A DNA stretch of 35,232 bases from Halanaerobiales bacterium (GTDB lineage Bacteria > Bacillota > Halanaerobiia > Halanaerobiales > M55B127), in assembly GCA_018334565.1 (NCBI GenBank), contig JAGXLU010000017.1, positions 1-35,232 on the forward strand. Direction: 5' to 3'. The position numbers and the translations under genes are program-made. Shown piece by piece: positions 5,681 to 22,851 of this stretch. Each line of letters begins with the position of its first letter. Position 1 is the first letter of the stretch. The notes under the pieces were generated by a model that saw nothing but the letters and a program-made list of their open reading frames with translations, was not told the origin of the DNA and made no database searches.

Positions 5681-6898
5681 ATGAGTTTAGTAGTACAAAA
5701 ATATGGCGGCACTTCACTTGCTACAGTTGAAAGAATAATAAATGTAGCAGAGCGGATTGTTAAAAAATATAACGAAGGTAATCAGCTGATAATCGTAGCA
5801 TCAGCCATGGGAGATACTACTAATCAGCTGGTAAAAAAAATGAATATGGTTTCAGATAATCCTACGCCAAGAGAGGCTGATATGCTCTTAACAACAGGTG
5901 AACAAATCTCAATTGCTCTTTTGACAATGGCCATTCAAAATTACGGTTGCCCGGCTATTTCTTTGACCGGTAGTCAAGCTTGTATCAAAACTGACGACAA
6001 ACATAATCGAGCAGTTATAAAAGATATAGATAATAAAAGGATTAAAAAAGAATTAAAAAAAGGCAAAATAGCCGTTATTGCAGGATTTCAGGGTATTAAC
6101 TCAAAAGAGGACTTCACAACTCTGGGAAGAGGGGGATCTGATACAACTACGATTGCTTTAATGGCTTCTCTAAAGGCAGATCGTTGTGAAATATATTCTG
6201 ATGTAGATGGTATCTATACAACAGATCCCAGAATACTGCCCAATGCAAAGAAACTTAATTTTATTTCCTATGATGAGATGCTGGAGCTGTCCAGTCTAGG
6301 AGCAGAAGTCTTACATCCACACGCTGTAGAACTAGCGAAACTATATAATTTAAAACTTTACATAGCTTCCAGTTTTAATAACAATAATGGTACAATTGTA
6401 AGAGGTGTTAAAAAAATGGAAAAAAAAAGAAATGTTACAGGGGTGGCCTGTGATTCTGACGTAATTAAGATAACAATCAAAAAAGTACCTGACAAACCAG
6501 GGATTGCTGGCAATATATTTACAAGACTGGCTGAACATAGAATCAATATTGATATGATTATCCAAAATCTTCAATATAATAATCTTAATGATATAAGTTT
6601 TACTATCCACAATAGTGACTTTAAAAAAGTTAAAGAGATCATTTATAATATTGCTAAAAATGTGGATTCCAGAGGGGTAGAAATAGATCAAGATGTGGCC
6701 AAAGTTTCAATTGTAGGGGCTGGTATGATCTCAACTCCTGGTATCGCAGCAGAAATGTTTCAAGCGATGGGAAAAGTTGATGTAAATATTCAAATGATAA
6801 CAAAATCCGAGATAAAGATATCCTGTTTGATCAAAGAAGATGGTGCAAAAAAAGCAGTTGAATCTATCCATAACCAGTTTAACTTAGGAGAATTATAA
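5681..6898 (+). CDS. lysC: Aspartate kinase (monofunctional, ACT-regulated)
   Basis: Catalyses L-aspartate + ATP to aspartyl-4-phosphate, the first step towards lysine, threonine and methionine. The start VVQKYGGTS is the family's K-[FY]-G-G-T-S signature. Further catalytic-domain motifs are LLTTGEQIS, GFQGI, TTLGRGGSDTTT and YSDVDGIYTTDPR. The C-terminal ~150 residues form two ACT domains (VPDKPGIAGNIFTRLAEH and VGAGMISTPGIAAEMFQAMG), so feedback control by an amino acid is expected. Its length of 405 residues is normal for the single-function enzyme. The frame extends six residues further upstream, but the ATG at 5681 matches the conserved N-terminus. Threonine synthase follows after 2 bp. 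No homoserine dehydrogenase or kinase is in the window. Confidence 0.96.
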   Translation: MSLVVQKYGGTSLATVERIINVAERIVKKYNEGNQLIIVASAMGDTTNQLVKKMNMVSDNPTPREADMLLTTGEQISIALLTMAIQNYGCPAISLTGSQACIKTDDKHNRAVIKDIDNKRIKKELKKGKIAVIAGFQGINSKEDFTTLGRGGSDTTTIALMASLKADRCEIYSDVDGIYTTDPRILPNAKKLNFISYDEMLELSSLGAEVLHPHAVELAKLYNLKLYIASSFNNNNGTIVRGVKKMEKKRNVTGVACDSDVIKITIKKVPDKPGIAGNIFTRLAEHRINIDMIIQNLQYNNLNDISFTIHNSDFKKVKEIIYNIAKNVDSRGVEIDQDVAKVSIVGAGMISTPGIAAEMFQAMGKVDVNIQMITKSEIKISCLIKEDGAKKAVESIHNQFNLGEL

Positions 6899-6900
6899 AT

Positions 6901-8394
6901 ATGAATTATATTAGCACAAGAGATAATCATTCACCGATTAGTGCAGCAGAAGCAATAAAATTGGGCATGGTACCTGAAGGTGGATTATTTGTTCCCTCTC
7001 ATATTCCAACCCTAAAAGAGGAAGATATTTTTGCTAAAAAAAATAATAGTTATCAGGATTTAGCTGTCTGGATTTTAAATTTATTTTTAAAAGATTTTAA
7101 ATCAAAAACAATAAAAGAGATAGTCAATCAGGCTTATTGTAAAAATAACTTTCCTTCTAAACAGATTACACCCTTAGTCAGGTTAAATAAGTATACATAT
7201 TTATTAATATTATGGAAGGGACCAACAGCTGCTTTTAAAGACCTCGCCTTACAGTTGCTCCCTTATCTATTAAAACAAGCTGTTTTAAAAACAGCTTTAA
7301 ATAAAGAAATAGTTATTCTTGTAGCCACCTCAGGTGATACCGGCAAAGCCGCTTTAGAAGGCTTTAAGGATGTTGAAGGTATAAGAATTATCGTATTTTT
7401 TCCAGACCAAGGGGTAAGTAAAATACAAAAGGATCAGATGCTGACCACTGGTGGCCAAAATACCTCAGTTGTAGCTATCCAGGGGAACTTTGATGACTGT
7501 CAAAGTGCTGTCAAAGAACTCTTCGCAGATCAGGACTTTAACAAATTATTGAAAATAAACGGCTATCAATTTTCATCTGCTAATTCTATTAACTGGGGAA
7601 GATTACTCCCCCAGATTGTATATTATTTTGCCGCTTATTTAAAACTGTTAAGAAATAATAATATTAAAAAAGGTGAAAATTTTAATATTGCTGTTCCTAC
7701 AGGAAATTTTGGTAATATTTTAGCCGCTTTTTATAGCTATAAAATGGGACTGCCTGTTAATAAGTTAATCTGTGCCTCTAATGAAAATAATGTTTTAACT
7801 GATTTTATAAAAACTGGAAGATACGATATAAAACGTGATTTTAAAAAAACGATAAGCCCCTCAATGGATATTTTAATATCCTCCAATCTGGAACGCTTTC
7901 TCTTTGAAATAACTGGTCATGATAGTACTAAAATAAAAAGATGGTATCACCAACTTGCGGATAAAAAAAGCTTTACAGTTGATCAAAAGACCCTTACTAA
8001 AATACAGAATTTATTTGTTGGTTACTACGCTAAAGAAAAAGAAGTCAAAAAAACTATTAAAAATACATATCACTATTATGACTACTTAATAGATCCTCAT
8101 ACAGGGGTTGGCCTTAGTTCATTAAATAAATACAGAAATAATAGCGGAGATTTAAATATAACTGTGCTTGCATCTACTGCAAATCCCTATAAATTCAGCA
8201 AGGCTGTTTTACATTCTATAAAAAAAGATTTGAATGAAAAAAATCAATACGAATTAATTGATAGGTTAAATGAACTAACAAAAATGAAAGTTCACCGTGG
8301 ATTAGCTGATTTAGAAACAAAAAAGATTCAACATAAAAAAAAGATTAATCTTAAAGATATTAAAGAGGAAATCAAAGATATTTTAAGTTTGTAA
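6901..8394 (+). CDS. thrC: Threonine synthase
   Basis: PLP enzyme converting O-phosphohomoserine and water to threonine and phosphate. The N-terminal STRDNHSPISAAEAIKLG and GLFVP motifs are the Thr_synth_N domain. GPTAAFKDLALQLL carries the PLP-binding lysine, and VATSGDTGKAALEGF is the phosphate-binding loop. SANSINWGRLLPQIVYYF and PTGNFGNILA are also typical. At 497 residues it belongs to the longer bacterial/fungal-type class. It starts 2 bp after lysC, so the two are translated from one message, a common arrangement for aspartate-family genes. No clear terminator follows. Confidence 0.95.
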   Translation: MNYISTRDNHSPISAAEAIKLGMVPEGGLFVPSHIPTLKEEDIFAKKNNSYQDLAVWILNLFLKDFKSKTIKEIVNQAYCKNNFPSKQITPLVRLNKYTYLLILWKGPTAAFKDLALQLLPYLLKQAVLKTALNKEIVILVATSGDTGKAALEGFKDVEGIRIIVFFPDQGVSKIQKDQMLTTGGQNTSVVAIQGNFDDCQSAVKELFADQDFNKLLKINGYQFSSANSINWGRLLPQIVYYFAAYLKLLRNNNIKKGENFNIAVPTGNFGNILAAFYSYKMGLPVNKLICASNENNVLTDFIKTGRYDIKRDFKKTISPSMDILISSNLERFLFEITGHDSTKIKRWYHQLADKKSFTVDQKTLTKIQNLFVGYYAKEKEVKKTIKNTYHYYDYLIDPHTGVGLSSLNKYRNNSGDLNITVLASTANPYKFSKAVLHSIKKDLNEKNQYELIDRLNELTKMKVHRGLADLETKKIQHKKKINLKDIKEEIKDILSL

Positions 8395-8589
8395 TGGACT
8401 AAAACATATAAATATCATTATTTAAAAACTGTATTATCCTTTATATAACTTGCGGTAATTTTAGATTTTTTTAATTATTAATCAAAAATTAATCCATCTT
8501 TGCAGTTTTTTAAAAATATTTTTTTATCAGCTAAATCTTAACTAGCCTGGCTGCAAACCATCCCTTAATTAAACTCTCTTATATATTTA

Positions 8590-8618
8590 TTGATATTATA
8601 GCTTTTTATATATATAAT
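8590..8618 (+). promoter_or_regulatory. Near-consensus sigma-A promoter for the TPR / PglY-PglZ unit
   Basis: TTGATA (8590-8595), 17-bp spacer, TATAAT (8613-8618), about 50 bp upstream of the TPR gene. It is one of the best promoter matches in the window and suggests constitutive expression independent of lysC-thrC. The rest of the 274-bp gap (8395-8668) is AT-rich; no RNA structure or ORF was recognised in it. Confidence 0.7.
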
Positions 8619-8668
8619 AATAACAAAGAAATTATACATTTAGTATTAATATAAATGGGGTTTTAAAA

Positions 8669-9667
8669 ATGGCTCAAAATCAATATATGCAGGTTAAAGA
8701 TATCTTAAGTAAAGCAATTGAACTTAAAAAAACCAATAAATACCAAGAGGCCAAAGCAGTCTTAAATGAGGCTTTAGTAAATAATCCAGGAAATATATAT
8801 GTTGAAGCCAGCCTGGCTGATACCTTATCAAGACTGGGAGAAACCGAAAAAGCTTTACAGCTAGCGGATAAAGTACTTGAAGCAAAACCTAACAATTCAC
8901 GTGCTCTAATAGTTAAAGGCAATATTAGTTTTGCCAAAAGGGAATATGAAAAAGCCCTTGAATTATTCGAACAAGCTCAGTTAAATAACAAGAGTGATTA
9001 TTTAACATCTCGCTTAATCAGGACCTATCTAAAACTTGAAAAATTTGAAGAAGCACGCAGCATCTGCTCAAAAAAATTAGAGCAGTCTCAAAAAAATCTT
9101 CCTTTTCAAAAATTAATGGCAGCTATTTATGAAAAAATGGGCGAAACCAACAAAGCAGCCCAATATTATGATAAATATCTGGATAAGAAACCGAAAGATG
9201 ACTTTGCCTATAAAGAAAAATTAAAATTGAAGATGAAAGATAAAGAACCTGCCAGAGCAGTCAAAGAACTAAAAGCCCTACTCAAAATTAAAAATAAATC
9301 CAATAATGTATTTTTACACCATCTTCTAGCAGAAAAATTAGAAGAAACACATAATGATGAAGAGGCTTTTTTACAATACAAAAAATCTTTAGAAATTGAA
9401 CCCGGCAATGATTTTGCGGTTAAACAGGCCGGTTTTTGTCTTTATAGAATGGGTGAATATGAAAGGGCCCTTGATTATTTAGAAGAAGCCTTCCGAGATG
9501 ACCCCTCTGATTACTATATTAAGACTACCTTAGTCAGTATCTATAAGAATACAGGCCTGATTGAAAAAGGTATTATATTTTTCAAAGATATTATAAAAAA
9601 TAATCAGGGTTATAATAAACTTTGGGGAACAATTAAAAAAATGAATAAATCATTGGGTGATGATTAA
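8669..9667 (+). CDS. TPR-repeat protein, partner of the PglY-PglZ fusion
   Basis: A 332-residue soluble protein built almost entirely of tetratricopeptide repeats. Examples are the helix pairs around KYQEAKAVLNEALVNNPGN, EKALQLADKVLEAKPNN, EYEKALELFEQAQLNN, EAFLQYKKSLEIEPGN and EYERALDYLEEAFRDDPSD, roughly eight repeats. There is no signal peptide, membrane segment or catalytic domain. TPR proteins act as scaffolds for protein-protein contacts, so it may organise or regulate the giant ATPase encoded next. GGGG eight bases upstream supports the ATG. Its stop at 9665-9667 is one base from the start of the giant gene, implying tight translational coupling. The fold is clear; the role is inferred from the neighbour. 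Confidence 0.9.
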   Translation: MAQNQYMQVKDILSKAIELKKTNKYQEAKAVLNEALVNNPGNIYVEASLADTLSRLGETEKALQLADKVLEAKPNNSRALIVKGNISFAKREYEKALELFEQAQLNNKSDYLTSRLIRTYLKLEKFEEARSICSKKLEQSQKNLPFQKLMAAIYEKMGETNKAAQYYDKYLDKKPKDDFAYKEKLKLKMKDKEPARAVKELKALLKIKNKSNNVFLHHLLAEKLEETHNDEEAFLQYKKSLEIEPGNDFAVKQAGFCLYRMGEYERALDYLEEAFRDDPSDYYIKTTLVSIYKNTGLIEKGIIFFKDIIKNNQGYNKLWGTIKKMNKSLGDD

Positions 9668-9668
9668 G

Positions 9669-12600
9669 ATGAGAATTAAAAATCTTGTTAATGTAAAAGA
9701 TGTACGAACCGTTGTTCAGATAGCAGATATTTTGGATCCTAAGTTAAGGGACTTCTTAACTGAAAGTTTTGTAATAACTGATGAGGTAGAAAAGATTCTG
9801 CTTTCATTTTTCAAAGACCTGACCGCTAATCATGGTAAAGGATACTTTATCGAGGGTAACTTTGGTTCTGGTAAATCTCATCTTTTAAGTGTAATCAGCC
9901 TATTGACCAGTTATAATAAATCCTGGGAGCATATTTTAAAACAAAAAAGTAATACCAACAGCCTTAAAAAACTCTCAGAAAAAATCATAGGTAAAAAATA
10001 CATAACTATCAACCTTTCCTTAGTTGAACACTCCAACAAGGAATATTTAGAGGATATTGTAATTGAAGAGCTTATCAACTTTATAAATGAAGATAATAGA
10101 CTGACTGATTTTGATTTTAAGGGAGAATCTGAATTTATAGAAAAGATTTCCACCATTATTATCAATGAACATGCCAATCGGCTCAAAAGTTTTTTAAGAG
10201 AAAACAAAATAACAAAGTCGGAACTCTTTCAACCCGGCCAGCTCTATTTAATAGAAAAATTACTTAATAGATTGAACCTACCATATAGGTTTAATTACAA
10301 CAGACAGCAGATCTTTGCTCAAATTTCTACTATCATAGATAACAACAAATATGATGGTCTAATTATCTTGATTGACGAGCTCTCTGAATTTCTGCGATCA
10401 AAACCGGATGGAAGACGATTTAATGAGGACATCAGGTTCATGCAGTTTTTAGGTGAATATGCCAAACGTAAGCCCTGTTGGGTTTTAGCCAGTCTACAGG
10501 AAGAAATAGAAAAAACCGGTGAAACCACTCCGGAGGCTTTTAATAAGATAAAAGATCGCTATCCAACCCGCTTTTATCTTACCGGCCAGCATATCAAAGA
10601 GTTGATAGACAAACGATTAATCGAATTAAAAGAAGATAAAAAAGCTTTTGTTGAAAAAATCTATCAAGATTATCAGGAATCTTTCCCCCATCTGCCTTTT
10701 CAAAAAAAAGAATTTATTAAACTGTACCCGGTTCATCCTCAGGCCATCGATCTATTAGACAATCTAAAACCGCTTTTTTCTCAGCACCGTGGTATAATAG
10801 ACTTTATCCACTACCAGTTAAAAGGAGACCCCGGTCGTTCAATAGAAGGCATGATGGACCTCTCTGCCGAAAATCTTTTAACAGCTGATAAAATATTCGA
10901 TCATTTTGTAGATAGGATCAGAGAAATGATGGAGACAAGTCCCTTTTATACCAAAGTATATAAGTATTACGAACAGGAAATAGGTTCATTATTAGAAGAG
11001 GGAGAGAAAAATACAGGTTTAAAAATAATCAAACTATTAATTTTATTTGCCATATCTCCCATAGATAAAAAATACAATGTCGAGGAAATTGCCAATATGC
11101 TCTTTTATAAGATTACAGACCTCGATCCTGCCATTAATTATGAATATATAGATGATATTTTAAACAGATTATATCAGCGGGGAGCCTATCTGATAAAAAA
11201 AGAGGCTAAACAAAAAAGATCGAATGTGTATTTTATTGACCTTAAAGCCGATGTAAACTTAATAATAAAACGGCGGACCGAATATATTAAGTCCAATCTT
11301 TTTAAAAATGATAATAGAATATTTACAAAATTGGGTAGACAGGTAAGAGAAAAATTCTTACCCCTAAATAACCTTTTTTCTAACAATAAACAACAGAGAA
11401 CTGTCAGCTGGCAAAATACTGATAGAAAAGGCTTTTTATATTTTTTGCCTATCAGGGATATTTCGATCGATAATATCAACCAAACTGCTCAACATTTGAC
11501 TCATGGAGAAAAAGATTTTATGCTTATAATGAGTTACGCCATGAACATAGAAGACGACAAAGAATACTTAAATAAAGTGCTCCTACCGGAACTAAACGAA
11601 GCAGAAAAGGCATCTTTTGTCTTTTGGATTCCTCAAAAAATAAAAGATAAAGAATTTTTAAAAGATGCTTTGGCCAGAATTATTTTGCTGGAGAAATATG
11701 AAAAAGATAGTTCCAAAACAGGAGAAAAAATTAAAACACAACTTACCAAACAGATTAAAGAAGAGAAGGACAGAATCAGTAAAATTTTTAGGGATGTATA
11801 TTTTAGAGGAGAAATTATCAATGGTTTCAAGGAAAAAGTAATTAATCTGGCTGATCTAGGTTTTCTACCTTTTCACAGATTGATTGATAAAATTGTTGCT
11901 GGACTTTTGGAAGACAAATTTCCTGACCATAAAAAAATCTCTCCTTACCAATCTATTTTATCCACAGCCCAACTAGAGGCTGTTTTAGAGGATTTTATCA
12001 GTGTGGGAGAAATTGAAAATCTTAAAAATATAGACGGTCAGGTCTTAAATGTAATTGATGCCTTTATGAAACCAATGGGTCTGATCAAAAAAAGGAAAAG
12101 TGGCATAAGGTTAAATATAAAACCACATAAAAATCCATTGATCAAGAAATTATTTGAGCTTGTTGAGGAAGACAAAACAGCTATTGATGATATTTATTAT
12201 AAGTTAAGAAAGGGCAGCTATGGTATGAGTAATAACCAGTTTAAGCTGCTTGTTTATTCACTACTTTATTCTGGTTATCTCAGTGCATATAGTGATCATA
12301 AAAAAATAAGTTTAAAAAATTTAAATGCCCGTAACTTTAAGAGAATAAAATACATTGGTTATGGCGAATTAATTGATGAAGATTTCCAAATGGTATTAAG
12401 TAGTTGTTCGTTGCTTCCACCTCGTTATCAAAAAAGGCATTTCACTCTTCCGCTGCAGCACAGCATCTGGCAGCATTTAATCGATAAGAAAAAAGAACTT
12501 AACCAAAGACTGAATAATATGAGGTATCAAGTTGAAAGATTAGAAAGTGATGATGATTTTACTGAATTTGATTTTGCTAATATGATAAATTATATAAACA

Positions 12601-15068
12601 AAGTAGAAAATTTGCTCTCAGAAATTATGGTCAGCTATTCTTCAGAAGAGGGTTTGGAGAGATTTGCGGCTAAATATAGGAATATGCCCAATATCGATTC
12701 ATATCTTGAAAAGTTTGAACAACTCGAATATTTTTTATCAAATAATTTGAACAAATACAAAAAGATACTGAACTACCTAAAACACCCCGAGTTTGATATG
12801 CCCTCAAATCAAAAATATAGCGATCTTTTAGAACTGAAAAAGAATCTAGTAAAAGCAATGAATGACCGAGCTGTTATCTATGATAAAAAATTCTTTGATG
12901 AACTTAATAATAAATTTATAGAATTCAAACAGAGATATATCGAAATATATATTGATGAACACGCCAAACAAAAAGGCAGTGACCATTTTAAAAGTATAAC
13001 GGAAATGCGTACAACAAGAAGTTACCAGGTTTTAAAATCACTGGCTGGTATTGAACTTATCTCTGTTAAAGATGACTTAGTTAAGATAGATCGACTAATA
13101 GCAAAGGCTCTAAGTAAAAGTTGCAGTATAAATCCACAAAGCAGATTACAGGATATACCGATCTGTGAATGCAAGTTTAAACTCGGTCATAAAATTGAAT
13201 TACCCTCTAAAAATAATCTCCAAAAAATTATCGACTCCGGTGTTCAACAGTATATTAACAGTCTAAAAGAGAAAGAACATAAGCAGAGATTAGAAAATTA
13301 TTTAGATAATATGGAGGCTGCTGGTAATAAGAGGTTTGCCCGACCTATTCGTAATCTACTCGCTGTGAAAATTAATAAGAATTTATATAAAAACTTAGAT
13401 AAAATATTAAACCAAAACGTTGTAAAAAGGATCAACTCCGTTTTGTCAGGCGATATCTCACTTATCGAAAGAAATCTGGATGAGCTATATGAAAATCTTA
13501 TCAATAGGAGCTTTTCGCCGACTCAAATTCGGCAGATCTTTAATGAGTGGTTGAAAGGCAGTACTGGACTCGGTCAAAAGACCTATATAAAGGTTAAAGG
13601 CAATTTCGGTCAAGGTTCACAACAAATGACAACAGCCCAGGATAATCTAATATTAATTGATTATATAAAACAAAATTATCCAGAGTTATTAAATTTAATT
13701 GAAAATACTGATTTCAACATTTTTATTAAACTTTTAGCTGTGGTTGTTTGGAAAAATATATATAAAATAGATAGTGGTTTAGAAAGTCTGATAACTAAAA
13801 TCATACCTGAAAACAGTACATTGATTATTGAAGAACTTCAAAGAAACCACAATTTAGAAGATTCTTTCACCGAAATGTTTGAAAGTCTATACACCAGTAA
13901 TCAAAATCAAGCCATCAAAAAGTTAATTACATCTAAGATTGATCAGATTGATCTTTCCAGTCGACTAATTGATCTAATTTCACCGGCCAATTTAGATGAA
14001 GTTATAGAAATTATAGAAATAGAAAAATTATCAACTAAAGTAATCAATAAAGTTTTAATCCAGTTTGTTAAAATGATAGAAAATATTCACCTTAATTATC
14101 AAACAAAAGAAACTCTTATTACACAAACTGAAGATATAAATAAAAAAATAGATGAAAGCCCACTCTCTAAATATAAAAAGGATGCCCTTAATTTGATATT
14201 AAACTACCTTTCTTTAGAAAAGAGTTTTGCTTATCTTGATTCTCAGGATAATTTTAATGATATAAAAGAGTGGAAGGAAGTCTATGTAAACCATTTAGCA
14301 AATCTGGAATTTAACTATTATAAAATTATCCAGCTTTCATCTCAGCTAGATATCACAGATATTATACCACAATCTATAAAGTATAAAAAAACAATTCAGA
14401 CTCTACACAACTACCAGAATCTTTTCAACAACTTCCACGACAGTCGAGATATAATGGGAGAAGACTATGAAAAATTTATGGGTAATAATCTTATATATCT
14501 ACTAAAAGATCGCTATCCTTACTTATTAAAAAAAATGAATACAAAAAAAGGCTACCTAATTCTTTTGGATGGTATGAGATGGGATATCTGGAAGTTGATC
14601 AAAAACGAGATAAACAAAAATCTGCCTCTACGCTTAATTGAAGAAGGTTCAATCTTTGCCCTTAGCCCTACTAATACAGAAACACAATTTGAAGCACTTA
14701 AAAAAGCCGGACAAAACATTAAACTTATCGACCAAAAAGAAGTAAGCGGCTCCTTACAGTCTCTATCTCAAAATAAAAAAACATCTAAAGAAATAATAAA
14801 ATTTTCATTTATCGATGATAAAGTGCACAGTTTCAAGGATAATTACATTGAGTTCTTAAAAGAAATAGTTTTTTTAAATCAAAACCGTTTACTGCCTTTT
14901 TTAGAAAAAATTACTTCCGGTTCAGCTATTTTACTTTTTTCAGACCACGGTTTTAAGATTAATCATGGGTTTAAAGAAGTTAATAAATATGAAGAACCTC
15001 GTTACTTACATGGAGGAGGCTCTTTCCATGAAATCATAGTACCATGGGCTTTTATGTATAAACCTTAA
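9669..15068 (+). CDS. PglY-like P-loop ATPase fused to a PglZ-type phosphatase-fold domain
   Basis: About 1,799 residues, very long for a bacterial protein. N-terminal ATPase: Walker A GNFGSGKSH at about residues 63-71; Walker B LIILIDELSEF with D236-E237; then PTRFYLTGQHIKELIDKRL (~300). This pattern is that of PglY/DUF6079-type ATPases. A likely winged-helix segment lies at ~470-530, followed by a long, mostly helical, lysine- and glutamate-rich middle (~650-1550). The C-terminal ~180 residues look like a PglZ domain of the alkaline phosphatase superfamily: LILLDGMRWD (D1634), SPTNT (candidate nucleophile T1668), LLFSDHGF (D1759, H1760) and YLHGGGSFHE followed by IIVPW (H1781). The metal-site residues therefore look complete. 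The ATG at 9669 is preferred over GTG 9657 and ATG 9660 because GGGTGA is correctly spaced. In BREX/Pgl systems PglY and PglZ are separate proteins; here they are one. No methyltransferase or other BREX gene is in the window. Phage defence is inferred, not shown. Confidence 0.8.
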   Translation: MRIKNLVNVKDVRTVVQIADILDPKLRDFLTESFVITDEVEKILLSFFKDLTANHGKGYFIEGNFGSGKSHLLSVISLLTSYNKSWEHILKQKSNTNSLKKLSEKIIGKKYITINLSLVEHSNKEYLEDIVIEELINFINEDNRLTDFDFKGESEFIEKISTIIINEHANRLKSFLRENKITKSELFQPGQLYLIEKLLNRLNLPYRFNYNRQQIFAQISTIIDNNKYDGLIILIDELSEFLRSKPDGRRFNEDIRFMQFLGEYAKRKPCWVLASLQEEIEKTGETTPEAFNKIKDRYPTRFYLTGQHIKELIDKRLIELKEDKKAFVEKIYQDYQESFPHLPFQKKEFIKLYPVHPQAIDLLDNLKPLFSQHRGIIDFIHYQLKGDPGRSIEGMMDLSAENLLTADKIFDHFVDRIREMMETSPFYTKVYKYYEQEIGSLLEEGEKNTGLKIIKLLILFAISPIDKKYNVEEIANMLFYKITDLDPAINYEYIDDILNRLYQRGAYLIKKEAKQKRSNVYFIDLKADVNLIIKRRTEYIKSNLFKNDNRIFTKLGRQVREKFLPLNNLFSNNKQQRTVSWQNTDRKGFLYFLPIRDISIDNINQTAQHLTHGEKDFMLIMSYAMNIEDDKEYLNKVLLPELNEAEKASFVFWIPQKIKDKEFLKDALARIILLEKYEKDSSKTGEKIKTQLTKQIKEEKDRISKIFRDVYFRGEIINGFKEKVINLADLGFLPFHRLIDKIVAGLLEDKFPDHKKISPYQSILSTAQLEAVLEDFISVGEIENLKNIDGQVLNVIDAFMKPMGLIKKRKSGIRLNIKPHKNPLIKKLFELVEEDKTAIDDIYYKLRKGSYGMSNNQFKLLVYSLLYSGYLSAYSDHKKISLKNLNARNFKRIKYIGYGELIDEDFQMVLSSCSLLPPRYQKRHFTLPLQHSIWQHLIDKKKELNQRLNNMRYQVERLESDDDFTEFDFANMINYINKVENLLSEIMVSYSSEEGLERFAAKYRNMPNIDSYLEKFEQLEYFLSNNLNKYKKILNYLKHPEFDMPSNQKYSDLLELKKNLVKAMNDRAVIYDKKFFDELNNKFIEFKQRYIEIYIDEHAKQKGSDHFKSITEMRTTRSYQVLKSLAGIELISVKDDLVKIDRLIAKALSKSCSINPQSRLQDIPICECKFKLGHKIELPSKNNLQKIIDSGVQQYINSLKEKEHKQRLENYLDNMEAAGNKRFARPIRNLLAVKINKNLYKNLDKILNQNVVKRINSVLSGDISLIERNLDELYENLINRSFSPTQIRQIFNEWLKGSTGLGQKTYIKVKGNFGQGSQQMTTAQDNLILIDYIKQNYPELLNLIENTDFNIFIKLLAVVVWKNIYKIDSGLESLITKIIPENSTLIIEELQRNHNLEDSFTEMFESLYTSNQNQAIKKLITSKIDQIDLSSRLIDLISPANLDEVIEIIEIEKLSTKVINKVLIQFVKMIENIHLNYQTKETLITQTEDINKKIDESPLSKYKKDALNLILNYLSLEKSFAYLDSQDNFNDIKEWKEVYVNHLANLEFNYYKIIQLSSQLDITDIIPQSIKYKKTIQTLHNYQNLFNNFHDSRDIMGEDYEKFMGNNLIYLLKDRYPYLLKKMNTKKGYLILLDGMRWDIWKLIKNEINKNLPLRLIEEGSIFALSPTNTETQFEALKKAGQNIKLIDQKEVSGSLQSLSQNKKTSKEIIKFSFIDDKVHSFKDNYIEFLKEIVFLNQNRLLPFLEKITSGSAILLFSDHGFKINHGFKEVNKYEEPRYLHGGGSFHEIIVPWAFMYKP

Positions 15069-15091
15069 TTAATTCGATGGGGAGTGAAAGT

Positions 15092-15421
15092 ATGGCTACT
15101 TTAAAAGAACATGAACAGGAACTGATCAAAAACTTAACTACTGATGGTTGGAGGGCTCGACCCCATCAAATCAAATGGCCAAAAGAACTGTACTGTGTCA
15201 AGGCAAAGAGAAGGGTATATGTTCTATTAAACAGGATTCATATTTATATACTTATCAAAAACTGTAATCATGAAGATCTAGAGAAAATAGTTGAGTTAAT
15301 CAAAGATAAATTTAGGACATACCATTCGATTTGGATTGTGGCTGACAGTTTTACAGAAAAAGTCCAGGAATTTGCCCATAATACACAGCTATTTGGGTTA
15401 ATTAAAATTGATGTAGATTAA
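15092..15421 (+). CDS. Small protein of unknown function in the PglY-PglZ unit
   Basis: 109 residues, soluble, not recognised. It has an N-terminal charged helix (LKEHEQELIKNL), then GWRARPHQIKWPKELYCVKAKRR, alternating strands (VYVLLNRIHIYILI) and a C-terminal SIWIVADSFTEKVQEFAHNT segment. The end faintly recalls the strand-helix close of Mrr-type restriction-endonuclease-like folds, but no PD-(D/E)xK site can be identified, so no nuclease role is claimed. The ATG at 15092 has GGGGAG seven bases upstream; the in-frame ATG at 15077 lacks one. It begins 23 bp after the giant gene and is probably cotranscribed, so it may be an accessory or effector subunit. Confidence 0.65.
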   Translation: MATLKEHEQELIKNLTTDGWRARPHQIKWPKELYCVKAKRRVYVLLNRIHIYILIKNCNHEDLEKIVELIKDKFRTYHSIWIVADSFTEKVQEFAHNTQLFGLIKIDVD

Positions 15422-15443
15422 ATAACTTAAGGAATGAGTATAT

Positions 15444-16091
15444 ATGTTATTAGAAAAGGAAAGACAACTTATAACTAAATACGGGAATAAGTTAATTGAA
15501 CTGGGCATAACCAGACAGACCGGTGGTAATTTAAGTATATTCAACCGAAATGAATCATTAATGGCAATTTCTCCATCGGCTATACCATACAGTAAGATAT
15601 CAGCTGAAAAAGTTGTTGTAATGGATTTAAATAAAAAGAAAATTGAGGGAGATAATAAGCCTTCCAGTGAATATGAACTGCATAGAATTATCTATGAAAA
15701 AAGAAAGGCAATTAATTCTGTTGTTCATACCCACCCTACTTATGCAACAACTATTGCCTGTCTTAAAGAAGAAATTCCGCCCATACATTATTTAATTGCA
15801 TTTGCCGGCCTTAAAGTACCCTGTGCTAGCTATGCCAGATTTGGTACGAAAAAATTAGCCAAAAATGTATATAAAGCTATGGGCAGTAAATATAATGCTG
15901 TTTTGCTCGCCAATCATGGATTAATATCAGTTGGAAAAGATATTAAACATGCCCTAACTATTTCAGAAATGGTTGAATTTTGTGCAGAACTTTATTATAG
16001 GGCTAAAGCAGTTGGAAAACCTGAAATATTAAGTAAAAAACAAATCAAAAGAGTGATTGAAAACTTACAGGATTATCAAAAAAAACAGTAA
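15444..16091 (+). CDS. fucA: Class II aldolase, L-fuculose-1-phosphate aldolase type
   Basis: A 215-residue zinc aldolase of the FucA/AraD family, which cleaves a ketose or deoxy-sugar 1-phosphate to dihydroxyacetone phosphate and an aldehyde. TGGNLS, ISPSAIPY, the catalytic Glu in PSSEYELH (E76), the HTHPTYAT zinc site (H95, H97) and the third ligand in LLANHG (H158) are all present and align with E. coli FucA numbering plus three. Members are also used to dispose of 5-deoxyribose and methylthioribose-derived phosphates, so fuculose phosphate need not be the substrate. AAGGAATGA precedes the ATG. The 22-bp gap from the preceding gene suggests cotranscription with the TPR/PglY-PglZ unit, although a functional link is not obvious. 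No fucose kinase or isomerase is nearby. Confidence 0.88.
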   Translation: MLLEKERQLITKYGNKLIELGITRQTGGNLSIFNRNESLMAISPSAIPYSKISAEKVVVMDLNKKKIEGDNKPSSEYELHRIIYEKRKAINSVVHTHPTYATTIACLKEEIPPIHYLIAFAGLKVPCASYARFGTKKLAKNVYKAMGSKYNAVLLANHGLISVGKDIKHALTISEMVEFCAELYYRAKAVGKPEILSKKQIKRVIENLQDYQKKQ

Positions 16092-16315
16092 TTAAATATT
16101 TAATCATTGTCTTTTTAAATTTATTATTTTAAAAATACACTTAATAATTATACCACAAAAACCTAGAAATATTTACTTTACAATCTGATTTTATACTTTA
16201 ATTTTTTAAAATTCCTTGTAAATATAATGGATGTTCTTTTAAATTAGAATAGTATCGACTAAAAATAAACTTTAAACACTTAAATATAGTTTTTGTAAGA
16301 GAGAGGAGCATTTTT

Positions 16316-17167
16316 ATGAAAGTACAGTACGAATGTATGCCCTGTATATTAAGACAGGCTATAGAAGCAGCCCAGATGGTTACTGATGATGAAAAAATAA
16401 TAGATCAAATCATTGAAGAATATGCCAAAAGAATACCTAAAATTAGAAACAATGTATCAACTCCTTTAGTTGTCAGCCAAATACAACAATCAATCAGAGA
16501 AAAAACAAACAACTCAGACCCCTATCAAAAATTTAAAGAAAAAAATATGCAGTTGGCCCAGAATATTTATAAAGATCTAGAAGAACTAATCCGAAGAGAT
16601 AAAAATCCCTTGAAAAAAGCTTTAATTATTTCTGCAACAGGTAATGTTATAGATGCAGGTATTAGTTTAAAGATAGAAGTAGAAGATAGTATCTTAAAAT
16701 CAATTAGGAAGGGGTTGACTGTTGATCATTATCAAAAGTTTGCAGACCGTTTAAAAAACTCTGATTCTTTACTCATAATAGGGGATAATACAGGAGAAGC
16801 AGTTTTAGATAAGCTGCTTTTAAAAGAGTTAAATCAATATGATATTAATATAACCTATGCAGTAAGAGACATACCTATTCTCAATGATGTCACCCTTAAA
16901 GAAGCAGAAGAGATCGGTCTATCACAATATGCTAATGTTATTTCAAGTGGTTGTAAAGCACCTGGTATGTTAATTGAACAAGCCAGTGATAATTTTATGA
17001 AATTATACAATAAAGCTGATATTGTTTTAAGTAAGGGTCAGGGCAACTTAGAAGGCTTATCAGAAGAAGATAGACCAATATTTTATCTCTTAAAAGCAAA
17101 GTGTGATCTGATCGCTGATTGGTTAGATGTAAAATTAAATGATCTTGTTTTTAAATTTGTAGAATAA
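16316..17167 (+). CDS. DUF89 / ARMT1-like metal-dependent phosphatase
   Basis: A 283-residue protein of the DUF89 (damage-control phosphatase) family. It begins with ECMPCILRQ, a C-x2-C motif typical of prokaryotic members, then ISATGNVIDAG (~106-116), IIGDNTGEAVLDKLLL with the metal-binding D157-N158, YAVRDIPILNDVT (~181-193), SGCKAPG and SKGQGNLEGL (K240). Characterised relatives are Mn- or Co-dependent phosphatases acting on phospho-metabolites such as sugar phosphates or damaged pantetheine phosphates; the substrate here is unknown. GAGAGGAG stands ahead of the ATG. The upstream 224-bp gap is AT-rich with only weak promoter-like sequences, for example TATAAT at 16223. Confidence 0.88.
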   Translation: MKVQYECMPCILRQAIEAAQMVTDDEKIIDQIIEEYAKRIPKIRNNVSTPLVVSQIQQSIREKTNNSDPYQKFKEKNMQLAQNIYKDLEELIRRDKNPLKKALIISATGNVIDAGISLKIEVEDSILKSIRKGLTVDHYQKFADRLKNSDSLLIIGDNTGEAVLDKLLLKELNQYDINITYAVRDIPILNDVTLKEAEEIGLSQYANVISSGCKAPGMLIEQASDNFMKLYNKADIVLSKGQGNLEGLSEEDRPIFYLLKAKCDLIADWLDVKLNDLVFKFVE

Positions 17168-17211
17168 ATATCCTATCTAAAACTAAAGATGAAGAAGGGT
17201 TGTATTATATA

Positions 17212-17610
17212 ATGGATAGAAAGAAAAAGGACTTTATTAGAGAATGGACCTATGAAGCTAATAATGATCTGGGCCTGGCTAACTTTGTAATTGATAATGG
17301 TGGTCAATACTATGATTTAGTCTGTTTCCACTGTCAGCAGGCGGCCGAAAAATTTCTTAAGGCTTATATAATCTATCTCAATCTTTATTACAAAAAATCC
17401 CATAATCTAAACTATCTTTTGAATGTAATAAAAAGAAAAAAAGAAATAAGCAAAACTCTTTATAAAAAAGCTGAATTATTAAATTCTTTTTCTGTTGATT
17501 CTCGATACCCTGATCACTGGCATGATCCGGATTTATTAAAAACTAAAGAATGTTTAAAAGCTGCTCGAGATTTTAAATCTTTCGTATATAAGGATCTTGA
17601 AAAACTTTAA
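17212..17610 (+). CDS. HEPN-domain protein
   Basis: 132 residues, nearly all one HEPN domain: EANNDLGLANFVID, then FHCQQAAEKFLKAYI (the classic helix-2 signature), KSHNLNYLL, and SRYPDHWH, which contains an R-x5-H arrangement like the HEPN RNase motif (R-x4-6-H). HEPN proteins are often the toxin of MNT-HEPN pairs or accessory RNases; here no nucleotidyltransferase gene adjoins. A frame extension to TTG 17200 is possible, but GAAGAAGGG would then touch the start codon, so ATG 17212 is used even though its spacing is long. Toxin activity is an inference. Many solitary HEPN proteins have unknown roles. Confidence 0.82.
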   Translation: MDRKKKDFIREWTYEANNDLGLANFVIDNGGQYYDLVCFHCQQAAEKFLKAYIIYLNLYYKKSHNLNYLLNVIKRKKEISKTLYKKAELLNSFSVDSRYPDHWHDPDLLKTKECLKAARDFKSFVYKDLEKL

Positions 17611-17644
17611 TACTGACCTTGTATTAAAGACAAAAAATCAGTCG

Positions 17645-17724
17645 TTGATATAAAAAACATTTTAGCTTATAATACAATTAAGGCTTCAATTATTTGATAA
17701 TTATTACTTTGTAAGCTGTATAAT
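17645..17724 (+). promoter_or_regulatory. Two candidate sigma-A promoters for DUF2953-gerW
   Basis: First: TTGATA (17645-17650), 17-bp spacer, TATAAT (17668-17673), essentially consensus. Second: TTGATA (17694-17699), 19-bp spacer, TATAAT (17719-17724), less ideal. Both lie upstream of the DUF2953 start at 17759. The sequence looks like a vegetative sigma-A signal; no obvious forespore-type promoter was noticed. Confidence 0.6.
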
Positions 17725-17758
17725 ATTGCTTTATTCTCCATTTAGAGGAGGAGTTTTA

Positions 17759-18406
17759 ATGTTCATCAACATTATCCTTATAGCCTTGTTTATCATATTT
17801 TTAATTATTTTATTTTTCCTCATAATTCCTTATAAATATAGTTATCAATTTGTTTATGACAATGGTTTATCTTATATAATTACTATAAAAACTTATCCTT
17901 TTGTTTATGTAAAAACAAAAAAGAATAACTTAATACAAAAATATATTAAAATATGCGGTTATCAGAAGACTTTAAAAAATAAAAAAGAAAAAAAACAAAT
18001 TGATGATGTAGTTGATGAACAAAAAGAAGAAAAAAAATTCGATTTTCCACTCAACATCATTACAAAAAATAATATCATACATATAATAATATTTGTCAAA
18101 GATATTATAAATTTGATTAGACCTGATAGTCTAAACATAAAAACAATAATCGGTTGTCAAGATCCTTACCATAATGGAATTTTAATTGCATACTATTACA
18201 GCTTTAAAAATGCCTACCCTAAATTACCAATAAATTTAAGTATTAACTGGAAACAAAAATATTTCCATTCAGAAGGAATAATATCTGGTTACATACTTCC
18301 TATACAAATTTTATTGAGGTTATTGACCTTTATCTTTTCTATTCGTACTTTAAAAGTTCTCTGGGAAGTTATAAAATATCAACTTCCATCTCTAAATCTT
18401 AAATAA
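17759..18406 (+). CDS. DUF2953 (YtfI-like) membrane-anchored protein
   Basis: 215 residues. The N-terminal ~25 residues (FINIILIALFIIFLIILFF) form a membrane anchor. A basic, strand-rich stretch (YQFVYDNGLSYIITIKTYPF, then YVKTKKNN), a charged linker rich in Lys/Glu (~80-110) and a domain with PDSLNIKTIIGCQDPYHNGI follow; the latter resembles the DUF2953 core, where a G-x2-DP-x3-G pattern recurs. It ends with a hydrophobic segment (IQILLRLLTFIFSI). In spore formers such as Bacillus the DUF2953 gene ytfI sits immediately before ytfJ/gerW, as here, which supports the assignment. AGAGGAGGAG upstream fixes the ATG at 17759. Its biochemical role is unknown. The stop codon lies inside a perfect hairpin. 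Confidence 0.78.
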   Translation: MFINIILIALFIIFLIILFFLIIPYKYSYQFVYDNGLSYIITIKTYPFVYVKTKKNNLIQKYIKICGYQKTLKNKKEKKQIDDVVDEQKEEKKFDFPLNIITKNNIIHIIIFVKDIINLIRPDSLNIKTIIGCQDPYHNGILIAYYYSFKNAYPKLPINLSINWKQKYFHSEGIISGYILPIQILLRLLTFIFSIRTLKVLWEVIKYQLPSLNLK

Positions 18407-18422
18407 GATTTAGAGATGGAAG
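18383..18422. repeat. Perfect 18-bp inverted repeat spanning the DUF2953 stop codon
   Basis: Arms 18383-18400 and 18405-18422 are perfectly complementary with a 4-nt AAAT loop; the TAA stop is at 18404-18406. No T-run follows on either strand, so it does not look like an ordinary intrinsic terminator. It may be an mRNA 3'-stabilising or attenuating hairpin between DUF2953 and gerW, or a leftover palindrome of an IS200/IS605-like element. Its inner arm (CTCTAAAT) recurs in the hairpin at 25856-25883. Confidence 0.85.
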
Positions 18423-18648
18423 GAATGTTTAATTATGGCAGTTGAATTATAATAAAAGATAGTGATGGAAATACATCAAATTCTAATGTTAAAAACATAG
18501 AACTTTTTAAATATAGTAAGGGTTAGTGTTTTGTTAGTTAGAGTTAAAACCATCTCAATTCATCCCCAAGCTAATCAGAGATTAGTAAAAATTTTTCTTG
18601 AGACATTTTAGATAAAAATAAATAATAACAAAAAGGAGTGTTTTAACT

Positions 18649-19035
18649 ATGGGGAAAGCAGAAAATATTCTGGATTCAATGTACAGTAAACTTGATGACT
18701 TTCTGAAAACTGAAACTGTTGTTGGTGAACCAATTGTAGTAGATGATATTAAATTGCTTCCGATCATCACAGCATCATTTGGCTTAGGTGGAGGGTTTGG
18801 TCAAGATGAAGATGATTCTTCTGAAGGTGCTGGTGGAGGGCTAGGTTGTAAGATAACTCCAGATGCTATCTTAGTAGTGAAAGACGGACAAGTAGAAATG
18901 GTTCCTATCAAGAAAAAAGGTTCTTTGGAAAAACTTTTTGAAAAGATGCCAACCTTGGTTGAAAAATTAAGTAAAATAAAAGAAGAGAAAAAAGCAGATC
19001 ATCCAAAAGAAAAAGAAGAAAAAGAATCTGAATAA
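18649..19035 (+). CDS. gerW: GerW (YtfJ) family sporulation protein
   Basis: A 128-residue member of the GerW/YtfJ family. Recognisable parts are the N-terminal amphipathic helix (ILDSMYSKLDDFLKTETVVG), the sequence EPIVVDDIKLLPIITASFGL, the glycine-rich GLGGGFGQ and GAGGGLGCKITPDAILVV, and EMVPIKKKG. The tail is very lysine/glutamate-rich. In Bacillus this protein localises to the inner spore membrane and supports germination; homologues also exist outside classical spore formers, so presence alone does not prove sporulation. AAAAAGGAGTG stands ahead of the ATG. The 242-bp space from DUF2953 holds the hairpin and nothing else recognised. Confidence 0.93.
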   Translation: MGKAENILDSMYSKLDDFLKTETVVGEPIVVDDIKLLPIITASFGLGGGFGQDEDDSSEGAGGGLGCKITPDAILVVKDGQVEMVPIKKKGSLEKLFEKMPTLVEKLSKIKEEKKADHPKEKEEKESE

Positions 19036-20674: not shown

Positions 20675-22549
20675 TTGTTAAAAAAGAGAAATCTATCTAT
20701 TTTTATGACACTGACACTTATTTTATTATTATCAGTTTCTTTTGTTGTAACAGCATCTGAAACACTGACAATAATTGCTACTTCAGACATGCATCAATAT
20801 GTAATGCCTTATGATTACATGACAGATAGTCTGAAAGAAGGTGTAGGCTTTGCTAAAACTTATACCAAAATACAGGAGGTCAAAGAAAATAGTAAAAATA
20901 CACTGCTATTTTCAAACGGTGATGTGATTCAGGGCAGCTTACTTGGATTATATGAGTATCAAATAAATCCACTTAAAGAAGGAGAAACTCAAACAATTAT
21001 CAAAGCCTATAATGAGGCAGGTTATCTGGCAGCTCCGCTGGGAAACCATGAATTGCAAGATTACAGTATGGACTTTTTTGAAAAAGCAAACCGGGGAGCA
21101 AATTTTCCATTTCTATCAGCAAATATTTTAATGGCTGAAAAGGAAAGTAACTTTTATGTAAAACCCTATGTAATACTAGACAAAATGATAAACGGAGAAA
21201 ACATCAAAGTCGGGGTAATTGGTTTTGTTCCACCACAGACTATGCTTTGGGGTAAAGACCACCTAGAGGGAAATGTCATTATAAAGGATATAATTCCACA
21301 GGCAAAACTATTAATACCAGAAGTAAGAGAAAAATCTGATATTGTAGTCGTATTAGGTCATACAGGTATCAGTGATGATCCTGTGGATTCTTATGATGCA
21401 AGAGAAAATGCAGGATATTATCTTGCCCAAATTGATGGGGTAGATGCCCTCGTCTTGGGTCATCAACATAGAACTTTCCCTGATGATTATGAAGATTTAG
21501 ACCATATAGATTCTGAAAATAGCACTCTTTTTGGAGTTCCTACTATAATGCCGGGAGCTTGGGGAAGATCTGTTGGTGTCATAGACATGGAATTAGAAAA
21601 AACAAATGGCAGTTGGGAAATAGTTGGTTTTAATGTCAGACATGAAAATATAACAGAAGATACAGAAATAAGCCCCATTATAGAAGAAATAGCTAAAGAA
21701 AATCACATGGCAACTATTGAATATGTGAGAACCCCTATTGGAAAAGCCGAAAGAGATATTGCTTCCTACTTATCAAGAGTAATGGATTCTTCTGTAACTC
21801 AAATCATTAATGAAGCCCAAATCTGGTGGGCTGAAAAGGTATTTAACTCAGGCGAATATTCTGATCTTCCCATATTATCAGCAGCAGCTCCTTTCCGAGC
21901 AGGTAGGGAAAGTGCTGATTATTTTACAGAGGTCTGGGAAGGAGATATTACAATTGGTGATGTTACAGATATATATATATACGATAATGAAATTAGAGTA
22001 ATGCACTTAAATGGAATACAAATCATTGATTGGTTAGAAAGAAGTGCGGAAAACTATAATAGAATTGATCCCACTTCCTCAGAAGAACAAGAACTTTTAA
22101 ACTCAGAATTCCCTGCTTTTAACTTTGATGTAATTGAAGGAATAAATTATCAAATAGATGTAACTAAATCAATTGGAAATAGGATTATTAGTGCTACTTA
22201 TGAAGGAGAACCACTCTCTAAAGATATGGAATTCCTAGTTGTGACAAATGACTATAGAGCAGGTGGAGGAGGCAATTTTCCACCTTGTGTTGAAGAAGAT
22301 CCTGTCTATGGGCCTAGTGGTGTAACCAACCGTGAACAAATTATTAATTATATTCAAGAACAGGGAAAAGTAAACCCTAATCCAAGTTATAACTGGAAAA
22401 TAATGCCGTTCAACCCTGCCGGTATGGTTACTTTCCGCTCACATCCAGAAGCCATGCAGTATATTGATAAATTTAATATAGGAGGCATAGAATTATTAAG
22501 AACTGATGAAAATGGTATGGGTGTCTATAAATTAGATGTAAGTAAATAA
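20675..22549 (+). CDS. Exported 5'-nucleotidase / 2',3'-cyclic phosphodiesterase family protein
   Basis: 624 residues. An N-terminal signal peptide (KKRNLSIFMTLTLILLLS, predicted cleavage near VTA-SE at 27) directs it outside. The calcineurin-like metallophosphatase domain has all expected motifs: D-x-H in ATSDMHQY (D38, H40), SNGDVIQG, LGNHELQDY, VVLGHTG and GHQH. The second half is the 5_nucleotid_C substrate-binding domain, including GGGGNFP near the end. Such enzymes release phosphate and nucleosides from extracellular nucleotides or cyclic 2',3'-nucleotides. The start codon is TTG with GGGGGG seven bases upstream. A strong terminator follows, so it is probably monocistronic. Confidence 0.9.
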   Translation: MLKKRNLSIFMTLTLILLLSVSFVVTASETLTIIATSDMHQYVMPYDYMTDSLKEGVGFAKTYTKIQEVKENSKNTLLFSNGDVIQGSLLGLYEYQINPLKEGETQTIIKAYNEAGYLAAPLGNHELQDYSMDFFEKANRGANFPFLSANILMAEKESNFYVKPYVILDKMINGENIKVGVIGFVPPQTMLWGKDHLEGNVIIKDIIPQAKLLIPEVREKSDIVVVLGHTGISDDPVDSYDARENAGYYLAQIDGVDALVLGHQHRTFPDDYEDLDHIDSENSTLFGVPTIMPGAWGRSVGVIDMELEKTNGSWEIVGFNVRHENITEDTEISPIIEEIAKENHMATIEYVRTPIGKAERDIASYLSRVMDSSVTQIINEAQIWWAEKVFNSGEYSDLPILSAAAPFRAGRESADYFTEVWEGDITIGDVTDIYIYDNEIRVMHLNGIQIIDWLERSAENYNRIDPTSSEEQELLNSEFPAFNFDVIEGINYQIDVTKSIGNRIISATYEGEPLSKDMEFLVVTNDYRAGGGGNFPPCVEEDPVYGPSGVTNREQIINYIQEQGKVNPNPSYNWKIMPFNPAGMVTFRSHPEAMQYIDKFNIGGIELLRTDENGMGVYKLDVSK

Positions 22550-22805: not shown

Positions 22806-22851
22806 TACATAACATGCACATTATAGCATGTACATTACGGGAGGAAATTTT

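Follow-up and report, generated by a model that had tools for sequence, protein, structure and literature searches.

BrxC (or PglY), an ATP-driven DNA-binding motor, and PglZ, a DNA-cutting enzyme, are normally separate proteins of BREX systems, which defend bacteria against phages. How BREX links its ATPase to PglZ, and why it takes such a large set of proteins for restriction, are open questions. BrxB bridges BrxC and PglZ via residues 1-98 of PglZ (PMC13326643). Besides this BrxB-binding N-terminal domain, BREX PglZ has a C-terminal Ig-like domain (PMC13326643 and the main text of PMC12839542). Mutations of T538 and H741 of PglZ abolish or reduce its nuclease activity (PMC12205998). The main text of a 2026 survey of BREX (PMC12839542) reports iSTAND-PglZ and DUF4007-PAPS reductase fusions, as well as new BR and BREX-Related Capture (BRC) systems. 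We found neither a BrxC-PglZ fusion nor a TPR partner in that main text, and searches of the literature (open-access PMC papers) gave no description of them.

Here we describe an operon that encodes both. The window that we analyzed is a stretch of 35,232 nucleotides from a Halanaerobiales bacterium, namely contig C5 of a draft genome of 2.16 Mb that is 97% complete. Positions are those of the window, and all features of the operon are on the + strand.

A BrxC/PglY-PglZ fusion protein

The ORF at 9669..15068 encodes 1,799 amino acids, with an ATG at 9669, a stop codon at 15066-15068, and no internal stop. A possible alternative GTG start at 9657, which is 12 nt upstream, would add 4 amino acids. 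A previous sequence-only reading described this ORF as a PglY-like ATPase fused to a PglZ-type domain, and the ORF and every motif that it quoted are where it placed them. The nearest relative of the protein is from a Halanaerobiales MAG (94% protein identity). For these two genes, dN/dS is 0.079 overall and 0.083 within the PglZ domain; three other pairs gave whole-gene values of 0.06-0.21. In three of these four pairs, constraint is weakest in the helical linker (see below). The fusion ORF is a real gene under purifying selection (dN/dS about 0.08), which acts on all of its parts.

The sequence-only reading proposed to survey how often the two parts are fused. Within the window's own phylum, we found full-length fusions (~1,620-1,900 amino acids) as continuous frames in 18 genomes from 12 genera. 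Because the same arrangement recurs this widely, and because the quoted motif residues are invariant in an alignment of 17 of these proteins, the architecture did not arise by chance.

Residues 1-1300 are BrxC/PglY, as had been proposed from the N-terminal motifs. Pfam's DUF6079 (PF19557) matches with E=4.6e-43 and 147.4 bits (the curated cut-off is 23), mainly over residues 223-1297 of the fusion and positions 165-1223 of the 1,238-position profile, and DUF6079 is BrxC according to the main text of recent work (PMC12839542). Also, PADLOC's BrxC/PglY models match the N-terminus with E=1.7e-34. The first part of this region (residues about 1-440; 9669..10988) is an ORC/Cdc6-type AAA+ ATPase domain, as delimited by the PADLOC BrxC match (residues 197-381), the Pfam match (from residue 223), and the predicted structure. 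In an AlphaFold2 model of residues 1-1190 (pLDDT 86, pTM 0.48), the best matches among solved structures were the AAA+ domains of BrxC (9zdx and 9zll; E from 4e-12 to 2e-9), followed by ORC/Cdc6 proteins. The rest of the BrxC/DUF6079 body (residues 441-1300; 10989..13568) is covered by the DUF6079 match to residue 1297 and by the same model (pLDDT 86), which predicts an alpha/beta region at about 570-720 and long helices at about 927-1148.

The Walker A motif GNFGSGKSH (residues 63-71; 9855..9881) is conserved: G63, G66, G68, K69, S70, and H71 are invariant in 17/17 fusions and in two DUF6079 homologs that lack PglZ. The Walker B residues D236-E237, within IDELSEF (10374..10379), are invariant in 17/17 fusions. 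We consider R297 (10557..10559) to be a candidate arginine finger because of its spacing: it lies 60 residues beyond the Walker B glutamate, and in BrxC from Acinetobacter, the ATP-contacting R330 lies 61 residues after E269 (PMC13326643). R297 is invariant in all 19 rows of our alignment (A7). Near the end of the BrxC part, a cysteine triad (C1152 and C1166-x-C1168; 13122..13172) is invariant in the 17 fusions and in the two DUF6079 homologs without PglZ. It is possibly a metal site, with three candidate ligands and no recognizable fourth.

The BrxC part is followed by an all-helical linker (residues about 1316-1624; 13614..14540), as assigned by DSSP from an AlphaFold2 model with pLDDT mostly above 85. 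The C-terminal domain after it (residues about 1625-1799; 14541..15065) is a PglZ domain, with the nucleotide-pyrophosphatase/alkaline-phosphatase fold. Searches with Pfam, PADLOC, and NCBIfam models and of PDB sequences miss it, so its identification required profile-profile and fold comparisons. Of the two profile searches that the sequence-only reading suggested, the one with DUF6079 gave a clear match, while Pfam's PglZ model (PF08665) scored 15.4 bits, below its cut-off of 25. The domain is a divergent branch of PglZ that lies outside of this model.

For the profile-profile comparison, we used hhalign to compare an alignment of 21 homologous C-termini with ten PglZ proteins that are encoded in other genomes of this class. 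(Several of the ten are from multi-gene BREX-like loci, L107-L112.) The match reached 97.3% (E=1.6e-11). By comparison, two other alkaline-phosphatase-fold proteins of the same genome gave E=0.011 and 0.23. In the reverse direction, the PglZ profile matches two members of the fusion family with E=4.4e-7 and 1e-5. We also compared an AlphaFold2 model of residues 1230-1799 (pLDDT 85, pTM 0.77) to solved structures with Foldseek. The best match was a BREX PglZ (9zn5_B; E=8.8e-10, probability 1.00), followed by structures of PorX (E from 6e-9, probability 1.00) and then by PglZ from the BREX system of Salmonella (9nv3; E 2.5e-4). Other members of the superfamily matched only at E >6e-3. Thus, the domain is PglZ in the wider sense, that is, a member of the PorX/BREX branch of the alkaline-phosphatase superfamily, and the model has the Asp/Thr/His site that the sequence-only reading expected.

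The putative catalytic residues of the PglZ domain are D1634, a metal ligand in LLDGMRWD (14568..14570), which aligns with D478 of a separate PglZ protein (L052); T1670, the catalytic threonine in SPTNT (14676..14678), which by motif is equivalent to T538 of E. fergusonii PglZ and T272 of PorX (the roles of these residues are described in PMC12205998); D1716 and H1720 of the DDKVH metal site (14814..14828); D1759-H1760 of the SDHG metal site (14943..14948), which align with D636-H637 of PglZ; and H1781, a metal ligand in LHGG (15009..15011), which by motif is equivalent to H741 of PglZ and H500 of PorX. All seven predicted metal or nucleophile positions, as well as the Walker motifs, are invariant across 17 full-length homologs (17/17). 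The predicted metal site is intact, as had been claimed from the motifs (D1716 and H1720 had been overlooked).

Because the PglZ domain comes directly after a helical stretch, and because the protein stops directly past the HGG...VPW motif, the fusion's PglZ appears to lack both the BrxB-binding N-terminal ~100 residues and the Ig-like C-terminal domain. This is judged from predicted secondary structure and domain lengths, not from a residue-by-residue superposition.

The TPR gene, gene neighborhood, and distribution

Immediately upstream of the fusion gene is a gene for a TPR-solenoid protein of 332 amino acids (8669..9667; Pfam TPR_19 with E=6e-29, and others). Between its stop codon and the fusion's ATG lies 1 nt. 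A homolog of this TPR protein lies directly upstream of the giant gene at 24/24 loci with enough upstream sequence (the window, L010, L024, L035-L042, L079-L088, L102, L103, and L105). The TPR gene of L036 runs off the end of its contig, and that of L102 was detected by a six-frame search; both are included in the count. L043-L047 and L104 are outside of it, as their contigs end too early or the locus has decayed. The two frames either overlap, by 38 nt at most, or have a gap of no more than 66 nt between them. Across 16 loci, the pairwise identities of the TPR proteins co-vary with those of the fusions (Mantel r=0.965; 0 of 5,000 permutations were as high), and the shared ancestry of the hosts contributes to this. 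The TPR gene and the fusion gene form a two-gene operon; the sequence-only reading had overlooked the first of them. From their adjacency and co-variation, we infer that the TPR protein may bind the fusion.

About 50 nt before the TPR gene is a sigma-70-like site, TTGATA-17-TATAAT (8590..8618), which matches the consensus at 11 of 12 positions. It scores the best of 41 promoter-like sites in 8300-15500, where shuffled sequences give 33 sites. By this consensus match, it is probably the promoter of the operon. No Rfam elements were found in 6000-19000 of the window.

Other than the TPR gene, the neighbors of the fusion differ from genus to genus. Among 68 flanking proteins from 16 loci, we found no enrichment of defense genes: the families are metabolic or housekeeping, no defense gene recurs, and PADLOC gave scattered matches, none of them in more than two members. 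In the window, the gene downstream of the fusion (15077-15421) encodes a 114-amino-acid protein with no significant match to any family, and a class II aldolase gene comes next. This small protein is found only in the genus's four genomes, and in L036, three genes intervene between it and the fusion. Further downstream are a HEPN-domain protein (17200-17610; E=6.9e-25) and two tandem 5'-nucleotidase-family proteins (20675-22549 and 22828-25011), each with a metallophosphatase and a 5_nucleotid_C domain. The HEPN gene and the downstream genes are kept together in L035, from another genome of the genus; we did not recognize a nucleotidyltransferase partner beside the HEPN gene.

We searched the host genome for other components of BREX. 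There was no match above the cut-off for BrxB (iSTAND, PF08747; best E 0.77), no match for BrxL (PF13337), no PglX methyltransferase (BREX_1_MTaseX), and no second PglZ above Pfam's cut-off. This genome-wide search covered BrxB, BrxL, BREX_1_MTaseX, and PglZ. The genes beside the operon had no match to DNA-modification families (PglX/BrxX methyltransferase or PAPS reductase). The approach does detect BREX where it is present, as multi-gene BREX-like loci (L107-L112) were found in genomes of the same class. Among the fusion-carrying genomes of this class, G047 alone has, in addition, a PglZ that is clearly above Pfam's cut-off. Many genomes have Pfam matches to PglZ in proteins of about 490-570 amino acids; these are most likely different proteins with the alkaline-phosphatase fold and were not counted as PglZ. 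For instance, L002 from the window's own genome reads as a phosphoglycerate mutase.

The C-terminal domain is present in 10/38 genomes of the order. With strong scores, it is present in 11/399 genomes drawn from the phylum and in 5/22, 4/13, and 1/26 genomes of three other classes. Overall, the fusions are scattered patchily: they occur in about ten of the phylum's families and in unrelated settings. When we scanned plasmids with the C-terminal domain, we found no hits, and a scan with the whole protein gave just two distant DUF6079 matches and no fusion. Fusions were also not found in phages or in two scans of viral contigs.

A tree of 35 DUF6079 proteins places the fusions in a single group (98/99 support), which stands apart from the DUF6079 proteins without PglZ and from the BrxC proteins of BREX type-1-like and type-3-like loci. 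(The types of these reference loci were assigned from gene content, and the deeper order of the tree is unsure due to long branches.) The gene tree mostly tracks the families of the hosts. Three members of the group are not intact. L103 is cut by the end of its contig. In L085 (5033-10548), the PglZ part is a separate ORF directly downstream, in another frame, by either a natural fission or a frameshift. L102 (2958-7951), which is nested within the clade of fusions, has the TPR gene and the BrxC part (1,380 amino acids), and no PglZ domain was found in its 99%-complete genome. The nuclease may have been lost, or L102 may use a different effector. Given L085 and L102, the coupling of the ATPase to PglZ is not strictly obligate, so "obligate partners," which is how the sequence-only reading put it, is too strong. 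Because of L102, the TPR-BrxC part may also have a separate function. A further copy, L046, has decayed, with several broken frames.

Possible roles of the operon

The most likely use of the operon, which we judge to be plausible and on balance probable, is as a modification-free BREX-related defense module against phages or other foreign DNA. Both halves of the fusion are from phage-defense families, its distribution is patchy, and one copy has decayed. On the other side, inheritance looks largely vertical, judging from the low dN/dS and from a gene tree in general agreement with the host families, and this is less typical of defense genes; the flanks are not enriched in defense genes; and no copy was found on plasmids, phages, or viral contigs. 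The sequence-only reading suggested either a minimal defense module or some new use of the two domains. That no other BREX genes were found favors this proposal, although it is not a one-gene module, since the TPR gene is a constant partner, and its defense aspect gains nothing from the flanking genes.

In the mechanism that we propose, the covalent fusion would take over from BrxB, which in BREX holds PglZ and BrxC together. Using ATP, the AAA+ part would load on DNA or oligomerize around it, and this engagement would bring the PglZ domain into position on nucleic acid. The sensor or the gate might be the TPR protein. Once triggered, the PglZ domain would cleave nucleic acid, either by nicking DNA or by cutting oligonucleotides, as do BREX PglZ and PorX. 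With no modification gene detected, the system would have to tell self from non-self by a trigger instead of methylation; the cue could be one that the TPR protein senses, or it could lie in DNA structure.

We also propose, tentatively, a more specific version, which has a reasonable chance of being correct but which we would not bet on: a two-gene, modification-free, BREX-like immune system, with the BrxC motor and the PglZ nuclease in one protein, and with a TPR sensor instead of methylation as the switch between self and non-self. Because motor and nuclease are one protein, the BrxB-mediated docking that is regulated in BREX would be hard-wired. If so, the BREX lineage would have no smaller system than this one, and restriction by BrxC and PglZ would work without DNA modification.

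The alternative that survives best, which we consider unlikely but worth keeping in mind, is that a BREX-derived protein was recruited to a cellular job other than defense, such as DNA maintenance, or signaling via cleavage of cyclic or linear oligonucleotides as by PorX, with the TPR protein as its regulator. This would account for the strong purifying selection, the gene tree that largely tracks host families, the metabolic and housekeeping neighbors with no defense enrichment, the lack of copies on the mobile elements that we scanned (plasmids, phages, and viral contigs), and the placement of PorX, which cleaves oligonucleotides, among the best structural matches. However, the fusion is absent from 28/38 genomes of the order, one copy (L046) has decayed, and the flanking genes are different in each genus, so the fusion is dispensable; also, both of its halves come from phage-defense families.

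A still less likely alternative, which overlaps with defense, is a toxin-like or abortive-infection variant. Here the TPR protein would restrain the fusion, and infection would free it to cleave DNA or oligonucleotides indiscriminately, so that the cell dies. We found no modification gene that would protect the cell's own DNA, BREX PglZ has no obvious site specificity (PMC12205998), and the two genes overlap or are closely spaced and co-vary, which would fit with such a pair. But the TPR protein could equally be a sensor or a scaffold, and toxicity of the fusion alone is a supposition.

It is quite improbable that the fusion is a remnant or accessory of a true BREX system and works with BREX proteins that are encoded elsewhere in the genome. 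Its homology to BrxC and PglZ would be expected in that case, but the host genome, which is 97% complete, yielded no BrxB, BrxL, PglX, or second PglZ, G047 is the only fusion-carrying genome of the class with a clear Pfam PglZ, and the gene is intact and constrained. Finally, an artefact of assembly or gene calling that joined two neighboring genes, as L085 with its separate ORFs might hint, is refuted by the recurrence of the same continuous frame in 18 genomes from 12 genera, in which residues are conserved on either side of the fusion point.

Whichever its role, a natural fusion without BrxB or a methyltransferase is a ready minimal construct for asking if sensing and cutting take no more than BrxC and PglZ, how the two are gated, and if modification is needed. 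The TPR protein is a new candidate partner of BREX-type machinery.

Comparison with BREX and other relatives

The most similar non-fused homologs that we found are DUF6079 proteins of 1,300-1,400 amino acids from loci without PglZ (L048, L049, L051, L113, and L114); those from L113 and L114 match the profile of the fusion family with E=1e-95 and 5e-88. Unlike the fusions, they lack a PglZ domain, and they are preceded not by a TPR gene but by unrelated genes of 245-266 amino acids and of about 300 or 642 amino acids. Four of these loci share a PglZ-less DUF6079 cluster (L113:8410-14038, L114:6190-11822, L049:3091-8978, and L051:7101-12720) with a constant order: a gene of ~300 amino acids, a gene of ~264 amino acids, and then the DUF6079 protein. 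The two smaller genes had no Pfam match where we scanned them. In L048 and L050, a 642-amino-acid protein takes the place of the ~300-amino-acid one, and the copy in L048 has an N6/N4-methylase segment.

PorX, the response regulator of PorXY, also has a helical region followed by a PglZ phosphodiesterase domain, and its chains are second only to BREX PglZ in structural similarity. But PorX has a receiver domain where the fusion has the AAA+/BrxC body, and it is part of a two-component system.

The BRC and Type-3 BR systems, as described in the main text of PMC12839542, resemble the fusion operon in that they combine a BREX-like ATPase with PglZ outside of canonical BREX, and the PglZ of Type-3 BR is a bare domain. 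In contrast, they have separate PglZ and STAND/iSTAND genes along with HerA/FtsK or MTase/helicase genes. By gene content and a Pfam scan of the neighbors, none of these (HerA/FtsK, STAND/iSTAND, or MTase/helicase) recurs at the fusion loci, which sets the operon apart from these systems.

Compared to BREX types 1-6, the operon shares a BrxC-type DUF6079 ATPase, with AAA+ and a C-terminal body, and a PglZ domain with the same metal-site motifs; both are predicted to be active. It differs in that one polypeptide does the work of BREX's two, in its constant TPR partner, in the apparent loss of both domains that flank PglZ in BREX, and in that no methyltransferase, BrxB, or BrxL was found with it. 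So the operon has two hallmarks of BREX, an ATPase of the BrxC/PglY family and a PglZ with an intact predicted metal site (as a domain, not as a separate gene), and it resembles the BrxC-PglZ core. It does not qualify as a BREX system, as our searches found no modification gene, BrxB, or BrxL. Rather, it looks like an undescribed, stripped-down relative of BREX.
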